Positions 49,799-61,361 of a stretch of DNA of 64,000 nucleotides are shown piece after piece. The first letter of the stretch is position 1, and every line of letters starts with the position of its first letter. Origin of the DNA: Nodosilinea sp. E11 (GTDB taxonomy: Bacteria > Cyanobacteriota > Cyanobacteriia > Phormidesmidales > Phormidesmidaceae); the NCBI RefSeq assembly GCF_032813545.1, contig NZ_CP136520.1, forward strand, positions 2,412,001 to 2,476,000, in the 5' to 3' direction. The position numbers and the translations under genes are program-made. The notes beneath the pieces are model-generated. The model did not search any database, was not told the origin of the DNA, and saw only the letters and a program-made list of their open reading frames with translations.

Positions 49799-50071
49799 AT
49801 GAGCACAGAAACCTATCTCAATCATCCCAATTTTGGCCTGCTCTTCAGAGTATGCATGGTGGACGACGGGCAAGAGCTGTTTGCAACGCTATATGCCCAG
49901 CGGCTGTTTTTTCTGGTAACCAACTCCCCCACGGAGGGGTTGGAGTTTCAGCCCCTCGGTCGCAGCAACGCCCGCCTGCTGCTCGAAAGCCGCCTGCGGA
50001 TTTTGCGGCGGGCTGGCCAGCAGGCCGACTATGATCGCCTCCAGCACACCTATAAGCAAACCTTTCAATGA
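49799..50071 (+). CDS. pipX: PipX, co-activator of NtcA and PII partner
   Basis: This 90-residue protein matches PipX. It has a Tudor-like N-terminal domain (ETYLNHPNFGLLFRVCMV, then LYAQRLFFLVT) and a C-terminal helical part (SRLRILRRAGQQADYDRL). PipX binds PII at low 2-oxoglutarate and NtcA at high 2-oxoglutarate. Its stop overlaps the start of pipY by 4 bp (ATGA). In this window it lies 3 kb from the Nit1C genes that carry exact NtcA sites. Confidence 0.96.
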   Translation: MSTETYLNHPNFGLLFRVCMVDDGQELFATLYAQRLFFLVTNSPTEGLEFQPLGRSNARLLLESRLRILRRAGQQADYDRLQHTYKQTFQ

Positions 50072-53569: not shown

Positions 53570-54850
53570 CTAAGACCCGATCGCCACTTCATTGACGGTC
53601 TGTGGTGCCCTGGGATAACTGCCCCTAGCTCGGGTAGCCACCTGCTCAGCTAAATACTCGGCGTCGCGGGCAATGCCTGAGAACCGGGCCGACCCCCAGG
53701 TGTAGAGCCAGGGCAGACCGAGGAAATACAGCCCCGGTACGGTAGTGACGCCCCGGCGGTGGCCAGGGTAGCCCTGACCATCGAATACAGGCAGATGAAT
53801 CCAGCTAAAGTCGAGGCCATAGCCGATACACCAAATCACCGCAGTAATGTTGGCTGCTCGGTAATCAATACCGGTCTCAGCGATCTCCGGCTCCCACACG
53901 GGACGGTAGGGCGGGTCGATAGGCGCATCGATGTTGTTTTTCTCGATGTAGGTGTCGATGGTGCGCTTAATGCTTTCGGCCACAGCGTCGGCTTTGTCGA
54001 GATTTTCTTTTAGGTCATTGCTAAACGCTAGCTGAGTGCCCTGGATATCCATCAGCCGCCCGTGTAGCCCCATGCCCTGAAGGGCAAAGTGGCGCAGGTC
54101 AATTTCGCGCCCGCCGCCACGCCCGGTGACGTAGTGGTTGGTTTTGTGGCGAACGGTGTCTTTTTGCGGGTGGTCGTCGATCGCCAGGTCGTAGTAGCCC
54201 ATCTGGTCAAGCCATTCGACCACATCTTTGCCCCGGTAGCGGCGGGGCGATCGCGGCGCACCCCCCACGCACAAATGCACCTTTCGCCCCGCCAGGTGAA
54301 GATCTTCGGCAATTTGGCAGCCCGACTGCCCCGTGCCCACCACGAGCACAGCACCAGGCGGTAACAATTCTGGATTGCGGTATTCAGCAGAATGAATCTG
54401 CACCACGTCGGGGGCCAGCCGCTCGGCCAATCGGGGAATTTTTGGCGTATGGTAGCCGCCCGTAGCCACTACCACCTGGTCGGCAGTAAAAGTGCCCTCG
54501 ATGGTCAGCACCTCAAACCCGCTCCCTGCTTGCCCTCTCACCCGCTGCACCTGAACCCCGGTTTTGATTGGCGGATTAAAGTGACTGGCGTAGCGCTCAA
54601 TGTATTCCACAATGGCATCGCGGCCCATGAACCCCTCAGGGTCATCGTCAGGGTAGGGAAAACCGGGGAGCTGGCACTGCCAGTTGGGGGTGACCAAACA
54701 GAACGAATCCCACCGTTTGGTGCGCCAGGAGTGGGCGATCTGATGTTGCTCAAACACGATGTGGTCGATGCCTAGGCGACTCAGACAGTAGCTGATCGAC
54801 AGCCCCGCCTGGCCACCGCCGATCACAATTACGCCATAGTGCATAGCCAT
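53570..54850 (-). CDS. Nit1C flavin-dependent oxidoreductase (MSMEG_0569-like)
   Basis: This 426-residue FAD/NAD(P)-binding monooxygenase-like protein has the FAD motif GGGQAG (11-16) and the NADPH motif GTGQSG (172-177). The sequence matches the flavoprotein that accompanies Nit1C nitrilases (MSMEG_0569 family). It may oxidise the nitrile or amine substrate of the pathway; the reaction is unknown. It reads away from the other six cluster genes, with the intergenic region holding an NtcA-activated promoter that reads into this gene (54975-54934). First ATG at 54848-54850; ATG two codons later is possible. Confidence 0.9.
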   Translation of the reverse strand: MAMHYGVIVIGGGQAGLSISYCLSRLGIDHIVFEQHQIAHSWRTKRWDSFCLVTPNWQCQLPGFPYPDDDPEGFMGRDAIVEYIERYASHFNPPIKTGVQVQRVRGQAGSGFEVLTIEGTFTADQVVVATGGYHTPKIPRLAERLAPDVVQIHSAEYRNPELLPPGAVLVVGTGQSGCQIAEDLHLAGRKVHLCVGGAPRSPRRYRGKDVVEWLDQMGYYDLAIDDHPQKDTVRHKTNHYVTGRGGGREIDLRHFALQGMGLHGRLMDIQGTQLAFSNDLKENLDKADAVAESIKRTIDTYIEKNNIDAPIDPPYRPVWEPEIAETGIDYRAANITAVIWCIGYGLDFSWIHLPVFDGQGYPGHRRGVTTVPGLYFLGLPWLYTWGSARFSGIARDAEYLAEQVATRARGSYPRAPQTVNEVAIGS

Positions 54851-54933
54851 AGCTGATACCCAGTTTTACGTTTTGGAATGCGGATTCTTGATGGCAAGTC
54901 TGGAAGAAACGCTTTCCATTGCCTTGTTTTTGT

Positions 54934-54975
54934 ACCCTAGGCCCTTGCCCAGAGGATGCTTGTAACCTCGGCTAC
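54934..54975 (-). promoter_or_regulatory. NtcA-activated promoter for the Nit1C flavoprotein gene
   Basis: Read on the minus strand, GTA-GCCGAGGT-TAC (54975-54962) matches GTA-N8-TAC. Exactly 22 bases later is TAGGGT (54939-54934), matching the -10 pattern TAN3T. That is the complete canonical class of NtcA-activated promoter. The predicted transcript start near 54927 gives a leader of about 77 nt before the ATG at 54850. Confidence 0.8.
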
Positions 54976-55192
54976 CGAAAGTCTTGATCTAGCGTTAGTG
55001 GCAGGGAAGGGGAATGCAATTCTCCTTCGGAGAGGCTGCACCAACGCACCTTTACTGCATTTCTATAGCCTCGATCCAGGTAAATCTAAGCTCTACCCCT
55101 ATCGAAAGTGATAGGGGTGGTCACAATCAAGCGAGGTTAATCGCATTCCTCTTGCCCCTGCCCCTGTTGATTAGAGCAGTACTCCAAGGTTT

Positions 55193-55234
55193 GTAGTCAC
55201 TGATACGAGAACCAGCTGAAATCGCCCCTAAGGT
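55193..55234 (+). promoter_or_regulatory. NtcA-activated promoter for the Sll0783-like gene
   Basis: GTA-GTCACTGA-TAC at 55193-55206 matches GTA-N8-TAC. Exactly 22 bases follow to TAAGGT (55229-55234), matching TAN3T. The predicted transcript start, about 55241, leaves a leader of roughly 53 nt before the ATG at 55294. This is a second exact match in the same gap, facing the opposite way from the first. Confidence 0.8.
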
Positions 55235-55293
55235 GCTGAAACATGCAGCCGGATATGCAGCGCTGCCAGCAATTTTGCGAGGAGCTAAATTTT

Positions 55294-55776
55294 ATGCCTG
55301 AAGTAACTACACCAGCCCATCAGGCTGGGGATTTTCTGGTTGATTACGAAGAAAAAGTGTTTCCTGATGTGCAGGCCGAGCCAGGCGAGAAAGCCCTCGT
55401 CACCTTCCACACTGTGGCCTTTGAAGGGTCTATCGGTTTGGTGAACCTGCTGCAAGCTACCCGCCTGATCCGCAAGGGCTTTGAAACCTCGGTGCTGCTC
55501 TATGGCCCCGGCGTCACCCTAGGCGTGCAGCGCGGTTTTCCCAAGCTCAACGACGAAGCCTTTCCTGGGCACCTGGCGATGAATAACCAGGTTGTCAAGC
55601 TGCTGGAAATGGGCTGCAAGATTTACGCCTGCCGCTTTGCCCTTCAGGCGCTCTATGGCCACGGTGAGCCTTCTCTCATCCCCGGCATTCGGCCCATCAA
55701 CCCCCTCGACGTGCTCGATATTGTGCTCATGCACCGCAAAGAAGGGGCCTTCATCCTCGACACCTGGACGATGTAG
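55294..55776 (+). CDS. Nit1C Sll0783/MSMEG_0572-like protein
   Basis: This 160-residue protein matches the Sll0783/MSMEG_0572 family, named for nitrogen-starvation response. Motifs are [40 protein letters not shown] and [20 protein letters not shown], a DsrE-like fold. In Synechocystis the homologue is needed for normal polyhydroxybutyrate accumulation under nitrogen starvation. The ATG at 55294 has GAGGAG 9 bases upstream and lies sensibly downstream of the NtcA promoter; the ATG at 55243 would sit at the predicted transcript start and has no ribosome site. Confidence 0.9.
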
Positions 55777-55820
55777 ACCCCTCACCCTCAGCCCCTCTCC
55801 CCCTGGGAGAGGGGAGACCC

Positions 55821-55924: not shown

Positions 55925-56962
55925 ATGGACTACACCAAAACCATTCGCGCCGCCGCTGCCCAGATCAGCCCTGTGCTGTTTAGCGGCGACGGCACCACCG
56001 AGAAGGTGCTAGAAACCATCGCCGAAGCCGCTCAATCTGGTGTGCAGCTGATTGTCTTTCCCGAGACATTCATTCCCTACTACCCTTATTTCTCCTTTGT
56101 GCAGCCGCCCGTACTTATGGGCAAAGAGCACATGCGGCTCTACGAGGAAGCGGTGGCGGTGCCAGGGCCGGTGACTGATGCGGTAAGTCGGGCAGCGCGT
56201 TCCTACGGCATGGTAGTAGTGCTGGGGGTGAACGAGCGCGATGGTGGTTCGCTCTACAACACCCAGCTGGTGTTTGACGCCGACGGCAGCCTAGTGCTGA
56301 AGCGGCGCAAAATCACCCCCACCTACCACGAGCGCATGGTGTGGGGCCAGGGAGATGGAGCAGGGCTGAAGGTGGTGGAAACGGCAGCGGGGCGCGTGGG
56401 TGCTCTGGCCTGTTGGGAACATTACAACCCTCTGGCCCGCTATGCTCTGATGACTCAGCACGAGCAGATCCACTGCGGCCAGTTCCCAGGTTCGATGGTG
56501 GGGCAGATTTTTGGCGACCAGATGGAGGTTACCATGCGTCACCACGCCCTAGAGTCGGGCTGCTTTGTGGTCAACGCCACGGGCTGGCTAACCCCAGAGC
56601 AAAAGCAGCAAATTACGCCTGACGAAAACCTCCATCGGGTGCTGTCGGGGGGGTGCTACACCGCCATCATCAGCCCGGAAGGGGTGCCGCTGAGCGAGCC
56701 AATTACCGAGGGGGAGGGGTTGGCGATCGCAGACCTGGACTTCTCACTCATTACCAAGCGCAAGCGGATGATGGACTCGGTGGGCCACTACGCCCGCCCC
56801 GACCTGCTGCGCCTAAAGGTAAATGCCGAACCCTGGTCGGTGGTAGAAACGTCCGCCGCCAAAGCGGTTTCTCCTTTGGCTAATGGGGCGGCCCAGGCTG
56901 CTTTTGCTGATGCAGAGTCCATTACCCCATCCCCCAACGAAGCAGAGCTTCCCGCCGGGTAA
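55925..56962 (+). CDS. Nit1-type nitrilase
   Basis: This 345-residue member of the nitrilase superfamily has the catalytic triad Glu47 (FPETF), Lys129 ([12 protein letters not shown]) and Cys163 ([10 protein letters not shown]). Enzymes of this branch hydrolyse nitriles to acids; the natural nitrile of Nit1C is not settled, and related clusters have been linked to cyanide utilisation. Start ATG at 55925 begins [19 protein letters not shown]; a longer frame from 55592 overlaps the previous gene and does not match. It is the second gene of the plus-strand cluster run, 148 bp from the first. Confidence 0.94.
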
Positions 56963-57113: not shown

Positions 57114-58202
57114 ATGAACAAGCAACGGCTGATTACAGAGCTACAATCCCACGGGCTACAAGTGGTAGATTCGCCCCCCGGTGCGGCGGGCAGGCGGGGC
57201 GGCGCAGGCCCCTCTGACCACCGCGCCATCACCATCGACGGCACCACCGTCATGGTGCCGGTCTACACTGACAGCGCCGCCCGCTCTCCTTATACCATCA
57301 GGGCTACGGCGGCTAGCCCGCTGCATCTAGAAGCCTCAGGGGAGGCGATCGCCCCTATCGACCTGCCCAATGCGCCCCAGTTTTATAGCCTGACCACCAC
57401 CGACGGCATTCCCTACTCAAAGATTGCTCTGCTGCACGGGCGCGACGTGCTGGCCACCACGGTGCAGCAGACCTGCATGCGCTACCGCGACCCGGCCACC
57501 GCCTGCCAGTTTTGCGCCATTGAGAAATCCCTCGACGCCGGGCGCACCATTGCCCGCAAGACGCCTCAGCAACTGGCGGAAGTCGCGGAAGCCGCCGTGC
57601 GGCTCGACGGGGTGACGAACATGATTATGACCACGGGCACGCCAAATACGAGCGATCGCGGTGCGGCCTACCTGACCGAATGCGCTGCCGCCATTCGCCA
57701 GCGGGTACCCAACCTGCCTATTCAAGCCCAGTGTGAACCGCCGGACGACTTTGCCTGGTTTGGGCGGATGAAGGCAGCGGGCATCGACAGCCTGGGCATG
57801 CACCTGGAGGCGGTAGACCCTGAGGTACGAGCCAAAATTATGCCCGGCAAGGCAGAGGTGCCGCTGACGGTCTATTACCAAGCTTTTGAGGCGGCGGTGC
57901 AGGTGTTTGGCTGGGGCCAGGTGAGCACCTACCTGCTGGCAGGCCTGGGCGACAGTCTAGAAACCCTGGTGGAAGCGAGCGATCGCCTGATCCAGATCGG
58001 TGTCTACCCCTTCGTGGTGCCCTTTGTGCCCATCGGCGAAACGCCGTTGGCTCACCATCCTGCTCCCAGCAGCGAGTTTATGTTTGCCCTCTACCAGCGA
58101 GTGGGGGCACTGCTCAAGCAGTCGGGTATGGCCTCGGCGGATATGAAGGCAGGCTGCGCCAAGTGCGGTGCCTGCTCGGCCCTGTCTACGTTTGAGGGTT
58201 GA
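57114..58202 (+). CDS. Nit1C radical SAM protein (MSMEG_0568-like)
   Basis: This 362-residue protein has an iron-sulfur site spaced C121-x9-C131-x2-C134 (CMRYRDPATACQFC) instead of the common Cx3Cx2C of radical SAM enzymes. The C-terminus has a second Cys cluster (C348-x2-C351-x2-C354) that could hold another cluster. The segment TNMIMTTGTPNTSDRGAAYL and the mid-barrel residues match the MSMEG_0568 family. The reaction is unknown; it probably modifies a substrate used with the nitrilase. ATG at 57114. Confidence 0.9.
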   Translation: MNKQRLITELQSHGLQVVDSPPGAAGRRGGAGPSDHRAITIDGTTVMVPVYTDSAARSPYTIRATAASPLHLEASGEAIAPIDLPNAPQFYSLTTTDGIPYSKIALLHGRDVLATTVQQTCMRYRDPATACQFCAIEKSLDAGRTIARKTPQQLAEVAEAAVRLDGVTNMIMTTGTPNTSDRGAAYLTECAAAIRQRVPNLPIQAQCEPPDDFAWFGRMKAAGIDSLGMHLEAVDPEVRAKIMPGKAEVPLTVYYQAFEAAVQVFGWGQVSTYLLAGLGDSLETLVEASDRLIQIGVYPFVVPFVPIGETPLAHHPAPSSEFMFALYQRVGALLKQSGMASADMKAGCAKCGACSALSTFEG

Positions 58203-58263: not shown

Positions 58264-58782
58264 ATGGCACTCCATCGCTATAGCTTTGAACTGGCTAAAA
58301 CTCCCCAAGATCTGGAAGGCTACTTTGCGCTGCGTCAGGCGATTTTTTGCGAAGAGCAGGGGCTATTTGACCACGACGATGCCGACAACCTAGATGGCGT
58401 CGCCTATCCCATTGTTGCTCTGGATCATGAGGCATCCCCAGGAAACCGCGTGGTGGGCGTGGTGCGCATCTACGAAAAATCGTCCCGACTCTGGTACGGT
58501 GGGCGGCTCGGGGTACACCCCGACTACCGCCGGGTGGGCCGCATCGGCAAAGGGCTGATTCATAAAGCCGTGACTACGGCCAATACCTGGGGCTGCGATC
58601 GCTTTCTCGCCACCGTGCAAGAGCAAAATGTCCGCTTCTTTCAGCGCCTCCACTGGGATTCTCTGGAGGAAATGGTGCTGTGCGATCGCACCCACCACCT
58701 CATGGAAGCCGACCTGGCCCACTATCCCCCCAGCGACGAGGTGCGGCCTTTACTGCCTTGGTCGTTGCAAGAAGTGTCGTGA
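58264..58782 (+). CDS. Nit1C GNAT acetyltransferase (MSMEG_0567-like)
   Basis: This 172-residue GNAT-fold protein has RLGVHPDYRRVGRIGKGLI as the acetyl-CoA loop (Q/RxxGxG/A type) and LEGYFALRQAIFCEEQGLFD at the N-terminus, which fits the MSMEG_0567/Sll0786 family. The acceptor is unknown. ATG at 58264 begins MALHRYSFELAKTPQDLEG; the longer frame from 58168 adds a Pro-rich stretch overlapping the radical SAM gene. Gap of 61 bp to that gene. Confidence 0.88.
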   Translation: MALHRYSFELAKTPQDLEGYFALRQAIFCEEQGLFDHDDADNLDGVAYPIVALDHEASPGNRVVGVVRIYEKSSRLWYGGRLGVHPDYRRVGRIGKGLIHKAVTTANTWGCDRFLATVQEQNVRFFQRLHWDSLEEMVLCDRTHHLMEADLAHYPPSDEVRPLLPWSLQEVS

Positions 58783-59071
58783 TAAGTGGATGGGTAGATG
58801 GGCGTACGGGTAGATGCGCACAGACTAAGAACAGTTGAAACCCTAGGGTCGAAAGCTGCCCACCGGCCAATTTGCAGGACATAGATTTAAACCGATGATC
58901 AGCCAATCCTTTCCGTCGGGTCCAGGGCGGTGGAACGTCCCTGGTCGACGGGGGTCTGGGGCCAGCGAAATGGCCCCAGCGGCATTTCTGGCTTCTCACC
59001 ACGCACCTCCGTCAGCAATACAGTCCATGTCCCATCAGATAGCCCCTATTTCAGACATCCCCAAAGCATTC
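58783..59071. other. GC-rich spacer before the AIR-synthase-like gene
   Basis: About 290 bases. It contains two GC-rich hairpins (CCAGGG...CCCTGG near 58920-58945 and GGGGCCA...TGGCCCC near 58957-58980). A longer frame through this region (start 58895 or 59027) would extend the next protein, but with Arg/Gly/Ser-rich, probably untranslated sequence. Confidence 0.4.
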
Positions 59072-60055
59072 ATGTCAGACGAGTTAAAGCTATGGGAGCT
59101 GGCTGCTGAACTGCGGCGATCGCTTGGCATTCTCCACAAGCAAGACATCCAAACAGCAGCGAATCGTCTGGGGGCCCACGTCCGATCAACCCACCAAAAG
59201 CCAATTCTGCTAGGCGACGACTGCGCCGCCATCCCCGACGGCGACGGCTACCTGCTGCTGGCCGCCGAGGGCATGTGGCCCACCCTGGTCGAAACCGACC
59301 CCTGGTTCGCCGGTTGGTGCGCCGTCATGGTCAACGTCAGCGACATCTACGCCATGGGGGGCCGCCCGATCGCCGTCGTCGACACCATCTGGAGCCAGTC
59401 GCCAGAATCAGTTGATCTCCTCTGGCAGGGCATGGTCGCCGCCTCCCAAGCCTTCAACGTGCCAATTGTAGGAGGCCACACCAGTTGCCACAGCCCCTAC
59501 GCCGCCCTATCAGTGGCCATCCTGGGCCGCGCCAGCCGCTTGATCACCAGCTTCAGTGCCCAGCCGGGGGATGTGCTGCTCCATGTGGTGGATATGCAGG
59601 GCCAGATGCACCCCAAATATCCCTTTTGGAACGCGGCGACGGAGTGTGAGCGCGATCGCCTGCGCGTCAACCTGGAACTGCTGCCCCAACTCGCCGAAGC
59701 GGGCCTCTGCGATACCGGCAAAGACATCAGCATGGGCGGCATTGTGGGCACAACGCTGATGCTGCTAGAAACATCGGGGTGCGGAGCGGTGTTAGATGTG
59801 GGTGCGATCGCCCCCCCGGCCCAGGTCGAACTCCTGCCCTGGCTGCTCAGCTTCCCCAGCTACGGCTACCTGCTTAGCGTGCGGCCCGACGCCGTGGGCC
59901 AAATTCAGCCCCAGTTCCACAACCGAGGGCTGGTGTGCAACCCTGTGGGCAAAATTACTCAAGGGCAAACCCTCACCTTGAAACTGGGTGATGCCTCCCT
60001 CTACTTTTGGGATTTTGCCATCGAATCCCTCACCGGGTTTGGAGCTGGAGTTTAA
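59072..60055 (+). CDS. Nit1C AIR-synthase-related protein (Sll0787-like)
   Basis: This 327-residue protein has the PurM/AIR-synthase fold. The N-terminal ATP site has LLGDDCAAIPDGDGYLLLA, MVNVSDIYAMGGRPIAVVDT and VGGHTSCHSPYAALSVAILG; DTGKDISMGGIVGTTLMLL is the second family motif. The relatives PurM, ThiL and HypE use ATP to activate substrates. The family is Sll0787, a Nit1C member. ATG at 59072 begins MSDELKLWELAAELRRSLG; an upstream ATG at 59027 is possible. Confidence 0.88.
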   Translation: MSDELKLWELAAELRRSLGILHKQDIQTAANRLGAHVRSTHQKPILLGDDCAAIPDGDGYLLLAAEGMWPTLVETDPWFAGWCAVMVNVSDIYAMGGRPIAVVDTIWSQSPESVDLLWQGMVAASQAFNVPIVGGHTSCHSPYAALSVAILGRASRLITSFSAQPGDVLLHVVDMQGQMHPKYPFWNAATECERDRLRVNLELLPQLAEAGLCDTGKDISMGGIVGTTLMLLETSGCGAVLDVGAIAPPAQVELLPWLLSFPSYGYLLSVRPDAVGQIQPQFHNRGLVCNPVGKITQGQTLTLKLGDASLYFWDFAIESLTGFGAGV

Positions 60056-60173: not shown

Positions 60174-61361
60174 ATGTCCCAACCTCTCAGGATTGCTCTG
60201 CTGACCTACGCCACCAAGCTGCGGGGCAGTGTGGTGCACACGCTAGAGTTGGCAACGGCGCTGACAGAATTGGGGCATCAGGTCTGCGTCTATGCCCTCG
60301 ATAAAGACGGTCAGGGCTTTGATCGTTCTATTCCAGCCACCGTGCAGCTAGTGCCCACCCAGCCGCCGCCTACTGGGCTTACCCCCGACCAGGCCACCGA
60401 CGCGCTGATTCGCCAGCGCATTCAAGAATTGGTCGATTATTTTTTGGCCCATCCTGAAGAAAATTACGATATCTACCACGCCCAAGACTGCATCGGGGCC
60501 AACGCCCTGGTGCAGCTCAGGCAGCAGGGACGCGTGCCCAATGTGGTTAGAACCGTCCACCACATCGAAGACTACGCCAGCATCTACCTCAGGCAGTGCC
60601 AGGATAAGTCGATTCGCCACCCCGATCTCTGTCTGTGCGTCAGCGATCGCTGGCAGACCGCCCTCCGCCACGAGTACGGCATCGTGGCACCCCGCGTCCT
60701 AAACGGCGTCGATGTAAGACGCTTTTCCCCAGTTCCTTCAGGCCAGGAGGAGGCCATCAAAGCTCGCTACGGCCTGACCGGATCGCCCATTTTCCTCACC
60801 GTGGGCGGCATCGAGCCCCGCAAGAATTCGCTTCGCTTACTCGAAGCCTTTGCCCAGGTGCTCACCACCCATCCCCAGGCGCAGCTGGTGATTGCGGGCG
60901 GGGCCACCCTGTTTGACTACGAACCCTACCGTCAGGCATTCTTTGCCCTGGCAGAAACCCTAGCGCAGCACCACGGGTCAATGATTGGCAAATCTGTCCT
61001 ATTGCCGGGGGTGATCCCCGATGACAACTTGCCCGCCCTGTATCGCGCCGCCGACGTGTTTTGCTTTCCTTCCACCAAAGAGGGCTGGGGGCTGGTAGTA
61101 CTGGAAGCGATCGCATCAGCCCTACCTGTCATCACCGCCAACCAGCCACCCTTTACCGAATTTTTGAACACGGACCAGGCACTCTTAGTCGATCCAGACT
61201 CTGCGGCTGCTATTGCCGCCGCCATGGTAACAGCACTGGATCCTACAGTCTCCCAAAAGCTCAGTTGCCGCAGTCAGTCAGTGCTGGCCAACTACACTTG
61301 GCAAAAGTCGGCCAGCCTTCACACCGACCAATACCAAACCCTGACAGAACGGCCAACTTAG
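60174..61361 (+). CDS. Nit1C glycosyltransferase (MSMEG_0565-like)
   Basis: This 395-residue GT4/GT-B glycosyltransferase begins MSQPLRIALLTYATKLRGSV. It has RTVHHIEDYASIYLRQCQD, then the nucleotide-sugar region ILTVGGIEPRKNSLRLLEAF and the E-x7-E type motif PSTKEGWGLVVLEAIASALP. It matches the MSMEG_0565 family of Nit1C. It may glycosylate the product of the pathway. It closes the visible cluster; the small MSMEG_0570-type gene found in other clusters is not seen. Confidence 0.9.
   Translation: MSQPLRIALLTYATKLRGSVVHTLELATALTELGHQVCVYALDKDGQGFDRSIPATVQLVPTQPPPTGLTPDQATDALIRQRIQELVDYFLAHPEENYDIYHAQDCIGANALVQLRQQGRVPNVVRTVHHIEDYASIYLRQCQDKSIRHPDLCLCVSDRWQTALRHEYGIVAPRVLNGVDVRRFSPVPSGQEEAIKARYGLTGSPIFLTVGGIEPRKNSLRLLEAFAQVLTTHPQAQLVIAGGATLFDYEPYRQAFFALAETLAQHHGSMIGKSVLLPGVIPDDNLPALYRAADVFCFPSTKEGWGLVVLEAIASALPVITANQPPFTEFLNTDQALLVDPDSAAAIAAAMVTALDPTVSQKLSCRSQSVLANYTWQKSASLHTDQYQTLTERPT

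Follow-up and report, generated by a model that had tools for sequence, protein, structure and literature searches.

Composite promoters joining an NtcA box to a second conserved element at the Nit1C cluster of Nodosilinea sp. E11 and related cyanobacteria

The Nit1C promoters of Nodosilinea sp. E11 and its relatives are composite, consisting of an NtcA box and a second conserved site with the core CT-N12-AG upstream of it. The second site, which the original prediction of two divergent NtcA promoters had missed, is probably the binding site of a dedicated regulator that has yet to be characterised; the binding is inferred. Since each promoter carries this second conserved element, NtcA is probably needed, but probably not the whole switch.

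All seven characteristic Nit1C genes occur together in the window (the whole stretch of DNA analysed, 64 kb), each above its NCBIfam cut-off. The flanking genes named in the original prediction, a flavoprotein gene and an Sll0783-family gene diverging from a 443-bp gap, and pipX at 49.8 kb were all recovered by family models. The genes are:

49799..50071, plus strand: pipX, gene of the NtcA co-activator, outside the cluster (NF045912, 139.5 bits, cut-off 125)
53570..54850, minus strand: flavoprotein gene (MSMEG_0569 family), predicted to be driven by the minus-strand promoter (TIGR04046, 677 bits, cut-off 498)
55294..55776, plus strand: Sll0783-family gene, first of the rightward operon (TIGR04044, 279 bits, cut-off 110)
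55925..56962, plus strand: nitrilase gene (TIGR04048, 591 bits; start at MDYTKT chosen by the analyst)
57114..58202, plus strand: radical SAM gene (TIGR04043, 597 bits)
58264..58782, plus strand: GNAT acetyltransferase gene (TIGR04045, 239 bits; start chosen by the analyst)
59030..60055, plus strand: AIR synthase-like gene (TIGR04049, 463 bits; start tentative)
60174..61361, plus strand: glycosyltransferase gene (TIGR04047, 497 bits)

The start of the Sll0783-family gene at 55294, said to be decided by the promoter, is supported by the TIGR04044 model, whose match starts only at residue 19 when the ORF is read from 55243, and by GAGGAG upstream of 55294. The predicted 5' end near 55241 is not decisive alone, because it lies only 2 nt before the ATG at 55243. 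Between the Sll0783 and nitrilase genes, positions 55778-55815 give a sub-threshold Rfam match to whalefall-1 (16.5 bits vs 37), probably by chance.

Class II NtcA promoters have the consensus GTAN8TAC and TAN3T in the available portion of one source (PMC9430850), and likewise in that of another (PMC3898017). The gap holds two exact, divergent matches to GTAN8TAC-N22-TAN3T, in the positions and orientation predicted: GTAGCCGAGGTTAC-N22-TAGGGT on the flavoprotein side (54975-54934, minus strand) and GTAGTCACTGATAC-N22-TAAGGT on the Sll0783 side (55193-55234, plus strand). Both meet the class II criterion (GTAN8TAC, N22/23, TAN3T, oriented towards the gene), and NtcA is encoded at C7:462008-462586 (TIGR03697, E 1.3e-115, over cut-off). 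The parts of the two promoters are:

54934..54939, minus strand: TAGGGT, the -10 box on the flavoprotein side, spaced N22 from the NtcA box (N22/23 in relatives)
54962..54975, minus strand: NtcA box GTAGCCGAGGTTAC, exact
55193..55206, plus strand: NtcA box GTAGTCACTGATAC, exact
55229..55234, plus strand: TAAGGT, the -10 box on the Sll0783 side, spaced N22 from the NtcA box

The rarity by chance claimed for these sites holds for the pair and not for the pattern. The two are the sole full matches in the window (mean 0.07 in 100 shuffles, never two), and the chance of finding two such sites, both correctly oriented, within one 443-bp gap is about 5e-7, a hand estimate from genome density without correction for how many gaps there are. 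The GTAN8TAC core by itself is no rarity (7 copies in the window vs 4.4 expected), and across the genome the full pattern is hardly enriched, with 20 matches vs 15 for the pattern read backwards, so that alone it predicts little. As the genome-wide count is weak, the case rests on the correct orientation of the pair in one gap and above all on conservation. The 20 matches comprise the two in the gap, 15 examined elsewhere and three left out (C7:5294002, 5420993, 5424166). Two of the 15 lie ahead of classical NtcA targets, one before glnA and the other before nirA, and four are inside or antisense to long ORFs, showing that the NtcA pattern alone is not specific. Exact NtcA-pattern sites are also found ahead of a dihydropyrimidinase-like gene (G000:C7:5411485-5411526, L118) and of an OmpR/PhoB-type response regulator gene (G000:C7:3842678-3842719, L113).

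A search for Sll0783 homologues was positive in 48 of the 63 genomes of the order and, at scores over the cut-off, in 27 of the 386 genomes of a phylum sample. Together with 80 named loci these gave 132 distinct upstream stretches, identical gaps being counted once; family f20 was taken as picocyanobacteria from its genome size and its likeness to named Synechococcus and Cyanobium loci, and 16 loci were taken as non-cyanobacterial from their titles. The exact promoter occurs on the Sll0783 side in 41 of the 50 divergent non-picocyanobacterial gaps, on the flavoprotein side in 46 and on both sides in 40. None of the other 63 trinucleotide dyads of the same shape gives both promoters in any of these 50 gaps (the best dyad gives 2 and 1), and control geometries give no more than one per side with other inner spacings and no more than five with other -10 distances. 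When one mismatch is allowed, the sites are found in 49/50 gaps on the Sll0783 side and 50/50 on the flavoprotein side. The gaps are related, and at 75% identity they form 30 groups, 20 of them with a member having both exact sites. Alignment of the gaps, suggested with the original prediction as a check, has both sites recurring at the same places, with N22/23 spacing, throughout the order. One of the closest named relatives is Nodosilinea nodulosa PCC 7104; G022, which belongs to the same genus, has an identical gap. The exact promoter is absent from all 20 picocyanobacterial gaps and from all 16 loci taken as non-cyanobacterial.

The promoters stay with their genes when gene order changes. 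In 29 same-strand clusters, having the flavoprotein gene ahead of Sll0783, the exact promoter precedes the flavoprotein gene in 24 and lies in the interval before Sll0783 in 21. Both promoters are retained in L149, where other genes separate the flavoprotein and Sll0783 genes by 2.8 kb, and in G061 the flavoprotein gene is on a separate contig with the promoter still in front. Among 17 further cyanobacterial stretches without a nearby flavoprotein gene, nine have the promoter towards Sll0783. NtcA control of both promoters, the core of the original prediction, is supported by this conservation and relocation and by the presence of NtcA and PipX genes; binding and expression remain inferred.

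When the promoters were aligned, another block of conservation appeared ahead of the NtcA box on both sides. Its core, CT-N12-AG, resembles the boxes of LuxR-type regulators; CT-N12-AG is a common form of such (lux/las) boxes, and ACCTGT-N8-ACAGGT also belongs to them. The elements in the gap are:

54988..55005, minus strand: second element, LuxR-type dyad CT-N12-AG of the flavoprotein promoter, its AG ending 13 bp before the NtcA box
55163..55180, plus strand: CT-N12-AG dyad of LuxR type, the second element on the Sll0783 side, present in the window
55095..55118, no strand: palindrome ACCCCTATC-gaaagt-GATAGGGGT, another copy of CT-N12-AG, lying 78 bp upstream of the NtcA box on the Sll0783 side

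Of the 162 Nit1C promoters, 143 have a CT-N12-AG whose end is 13 bp ahead of the NtcA box, where base composition predicts 0.4%. In divergent gaps it is found at 46/49 Sll0783-side and 44/50 flavoprotein-side promoters, in same-strand clusters at 23/29 front and 17/20 internal promoters (L157 being excluded from the internal set), and among the remaining promoters at 13/14. When all dinucleotide dyads were compared over spacers of 6-19 and distances of 0-59 bp, CT-N12-AG ranked first in every set. None of the other 15 NtcA-pattern sites inspected in the genome has it at this fixed place, those of glnA and nirA included.

The further copy, 76-78 bp before the NtcA box, is largely a feature of the Sll0783 side: in divergent gaps it occurs in 36/49 Sll0783-side vs 4/50 flavoprotein-side promoters, and elsewhere in 14/20 and 13/14 Sll0783 promoters vs 8/29 flavoprotein promoters. 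Palindromes of this kind, with at most one mismatch, are present in 39/72 gaps vs 48/1440 shuffles, their arms change together in relatives, and that of L071 contains ACCTGT-N8-ACAGGT. The palindrome pattern is not enriched genome-wide (4 sites, each read on both strands, vs 7 and 7 in the control). The loop, 55104-55109, reads gaaagt or its reverse complement actttc in close relatives (L047, L051, L061, L068, L076 and L083 compared with L053, L080 and L081), as if a hairpin loop had been flipped, and its occurrence in both orientations is more in keeping with a symmetric operator in DNA than with a hairpin in RNA. A terminator or RNA element was rejected, as the palindrome is not listed by the terminator scan, has no Rfam match and is upstream of both predicted 5' ends.

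The specificity of the whole arrangement was examined with the composite pattern CCTR-N11-AGR-N12-GTAN8TAC-N22-TAN3T. Across the 63 genomes of the order it matches 56 places in 40 genomes, all of them at Nit1C genes: 55 lie next to Sll0783, and the remaining one is at the displaced flavoprotein gene of G061. The backward control has no match in these genomes. In 373 phylum genomes it matches seven places, 6/7 at Nit1C genes. The backward control also gives seven matches there (places not shown), and in this search it is therefore location and not number that is informative. The one match of the seven away from Nit1C genes is at G089:C1:1886118-1886189 (L213). The N23 form, in a test of 32 genomes, matches eight places in six of the 12 carriers outside the order, 8/8 being assigned to Nit1C genes from their position; the 20 genomes without Sll0783 have no match. 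The window's own Sll0783 promoter fails the strict composite at the last R, though its CT-N12-AG is present. Because the pattern was derived from Nit1C promoters, its matches at them partly follow from its design; neither the rarity of matches elsewhere nor the displaced copy was put in beforehand.

A candidate for the second regulator is encoded between the flavoprotein and Sll0783 genes of L149, a MAG. It is a protein of 499 aa that combines a GAF domain with a LuxR-type helix-turn-helix; in sequence it is closest to GerE and NarL chains. The intervening region, L149:1451-3694, holds this GAF-LuxR regulator together with an isochorismatase-like fragment and an MSMEG_0570-family nitrogen starvation gene. 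The orthologue in Nodosilinea sp. E11 (G000:C7:3157014-3158423), some 690 kb from the Nit1C cluster, has 47% identity over residues 25-495 and the same two domains, with PF00196 (GerE/LuxR helix-turn-helix) C-terminal at 431-482 (E 3.3e-17). No autoinducer-binding domain is among the Pfam matches of the candidate, which has a GAF domain instead. Shorter copies of the regulator lack part of the middle and keep both domains. The predicted structure of the L149 protein (mean pLDDT 76.8, pTM 0.39, 8 sequences) may be read as a GAF domain, a kinase-ATPase-like part, a receiver-like part and the helix-turn-helix; the middle parts are a guess, since the 50 PDB matches listed are mostly GAF or phytochrome entries.

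The distribution of the regulator follows that of the cluster. At E of at most 1e-30, an orthologue is present in 14 genomes of the 386-genome sample, all among the 15 Nit1C carriers outside f20, and in none of the other 371, i.e., 0/12 f20 carriers and 0/359 other genomes; the only non-f20 carrier without it is G221. Fisher p is about 1e-24 (14/15 vs 0/371) or 1e-18 (14/27 vs 0/359), relatedness being ignored. The fit is looser in the order, where 44/48 carriers have the orthologue and so do 4/15 genomes without Sll0783. No Sll0783 homologue turned up in these four (G005, G010, G048, G057), possibly because the assemblies are incomplete; alternatively, the regulator may act on other targets. 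The regulator gene is within 9 kb of Sll0783 in 17/55 genomes having both, and in G061 it adjoins the displaced flavoprotein gene.

The observed sites, their spacing, conservation and specificity and the co-occurrence of the regulator are best explained, and quite probably so, by joint activation of both divergent composite promoters by NtcA and the GAF-LuxR regulator, of which the binding, the AND logic and the signal are inferred. Each promoter has, from upstream on, the CT-N12-AG dyad of LuxR type, the NtcA box GTAN8TAC 13 bp later and the -10 box a further 22 bp away; the 5' ends are predicted near 54927 and 55241. NtcA, with 2-oxoglutarate and PipX, would act as a class II activator recruiting polymerase at both promoters under nitrogen shortage. 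A second DNA-binding protein, for which the GAF-LuxR regulator at G000:C7:3157014-3158423 is the best candidate, would bind just upstream at both promoters, centred near -69, and at the Sll0783 promoter again near -134, about six helical turns further up. The GAF protein may sense a second signal, perhaps cyanide or nitrile. If both proteins are needed for full expression, the cluster would open under nitrogen shortage plus this second signal.

Against this model, there are no binding or expression data, and the preference of LuxR-type proteins for CT-N12-AG is only presumed here; the regulator gene is distant in this genome, co-occurrence is looser in the order, and the composite is partly by construction. 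NtcA alone could drive both promoters, with CT-N12-AG only helping RNA polymerase or NtcA, e.g., through alpha subunit contact. The alpha subunit would contact DNA directly upstream of a class II activator site, which is where the element lies, and data showing a second protein bound there are lacking. This explanation is unlikely, though it keeps some weight: the element is sequence-specific and dyad-symmetric, is missing from 15/15 other NtcA-pattern sites, glnA and nirA included, and occurs with a GAF-LuxR gene of matching distribution.

The second regulator might instead be a different protein binding CT-N12-AG, the GAF-LuxR protein merely travelling with the cluster. Further LuxR-type proteins are encoded in the genome, and the carriers G012, G017, G040 and G060 lack an orthologue at E 1e-30, yet all keep the composite. 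However, the contig edge beside the G040 cluster holds the end of such a gene (L165, 67% identity, residues 426-495), G012, G017 and G060 are fragmented assemblies, and in the phylum sample regulator and cluster coincide almost perfectly, which leaves this a rather improbable account. That the two NtcA sites are functionless chance matches can hardly be maintained. It gains from the exact pattern being hardly enriched genome-wide, but has to face both sites in 40/50 gaps against none for other dyads, sites that relocate with their genes, and 0/16 at loci taken as non-cyanobacterial. Chance origin is thus rejected through conservation and the dyad controls, and not through the genome-wide count, which is weak alone.

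Joint control by NtcA and the GAF-LuxR regulator can be compared with known systems. Nit1C promoters share box, spacing and -10 box with the canonical class II NtcA promoter (box near -41.5 or -40.5), as do glnA and nirA here, and differ from it by the added CT-N12-AG at fixed distance. With LuxR-type (lux/las) boxes they share CT-N12-AG, at 143/162 promoters, and the L071 palindrome. Quorum sensing is not implied, because the candidate, unlike quorum-sensing LuxR proteins, has a GAF domain and by Pfam no autoinducer domain. At the nir genes NtcA acts with NtcB, a LysR-type protein; the Nit1C model shares with this system a global nitrogen activator and a second, specific regulator, whereas its candidate is a GAF-LuxR protein and its site an even-spaced CT-N12-AG. 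The Synechocystis sll0783 operon belongs to the same gene family as the Sll0783 gene of the window. That operon and sll0782 are repressed by ammonium, according to the part of the source available (PMC10094980), and sll0782 appears in an extract of another as a helix-turn-helix protein of no known function (PMC5318462). The divergent flavoprotein gene was described in 2005, as far as the accessible text goes (PMC1199592), and cyanide use and occurrence in picocyanobacteria are discussed in the available sections of two articles (PMC9716671, PMC10119275). In the openly licensed literature, neither a second regulator nor such a promoter anatomy was found described; an earlier NtcA-site prediction at sll0783 is not excluded.

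The role of the Nit1C cluster and of the Sll0783 protein in cyanobacteria is still open, and if a GAF-LuxR protein shares control with NtcA, its ligand would point to the natural substrate or signal of the pathway. The composite pattern provides a very specific handle for further regulon members, and a vague 'nitrogen starvation protein' becomes a testable two-input circuit. A wider reading, which could equally prove right or wrong, is that Nit1C outside the picocyanobacteria has dedicated two-key promoters, with NtcA as the key for nitrogen and a GAF-LuxR protein travelling with the cluster as the key for a substrate-related signal (cyanide or nitrile), the same keys serving both genes whatever their order, and with picocyanobacteria lacking the second key and the regulator.

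In picocyanobacteria, 15/20 gaps have a conserved GTNGCATCGGCGAC-like element (GT-N10-AC) 51-65 bp before Sll0783 (L097-L103, L105-L107, L181, L188, L192, L200, L202), the pattern having been written after the gaps were seen. None of these 15 gaps has the fixed-place CT-N12-AG. The element occupies the place of the NtcA box in other cyanobacteria, and is possibly a loosened NtcA site or another operator. For marine Synechococcus WH7803, loose NtcA sites are given in the available portion of the source, many of them GT-N10-AC in the analyst's reading (PMC9430850). A different departure is seen in G221 (L109), where the Sll0783 homologue has an internal TGA, the GTAN8TAC core is without a -10 box and there is no GAF-LuxR orthologue; its cluster is possibly decaying.
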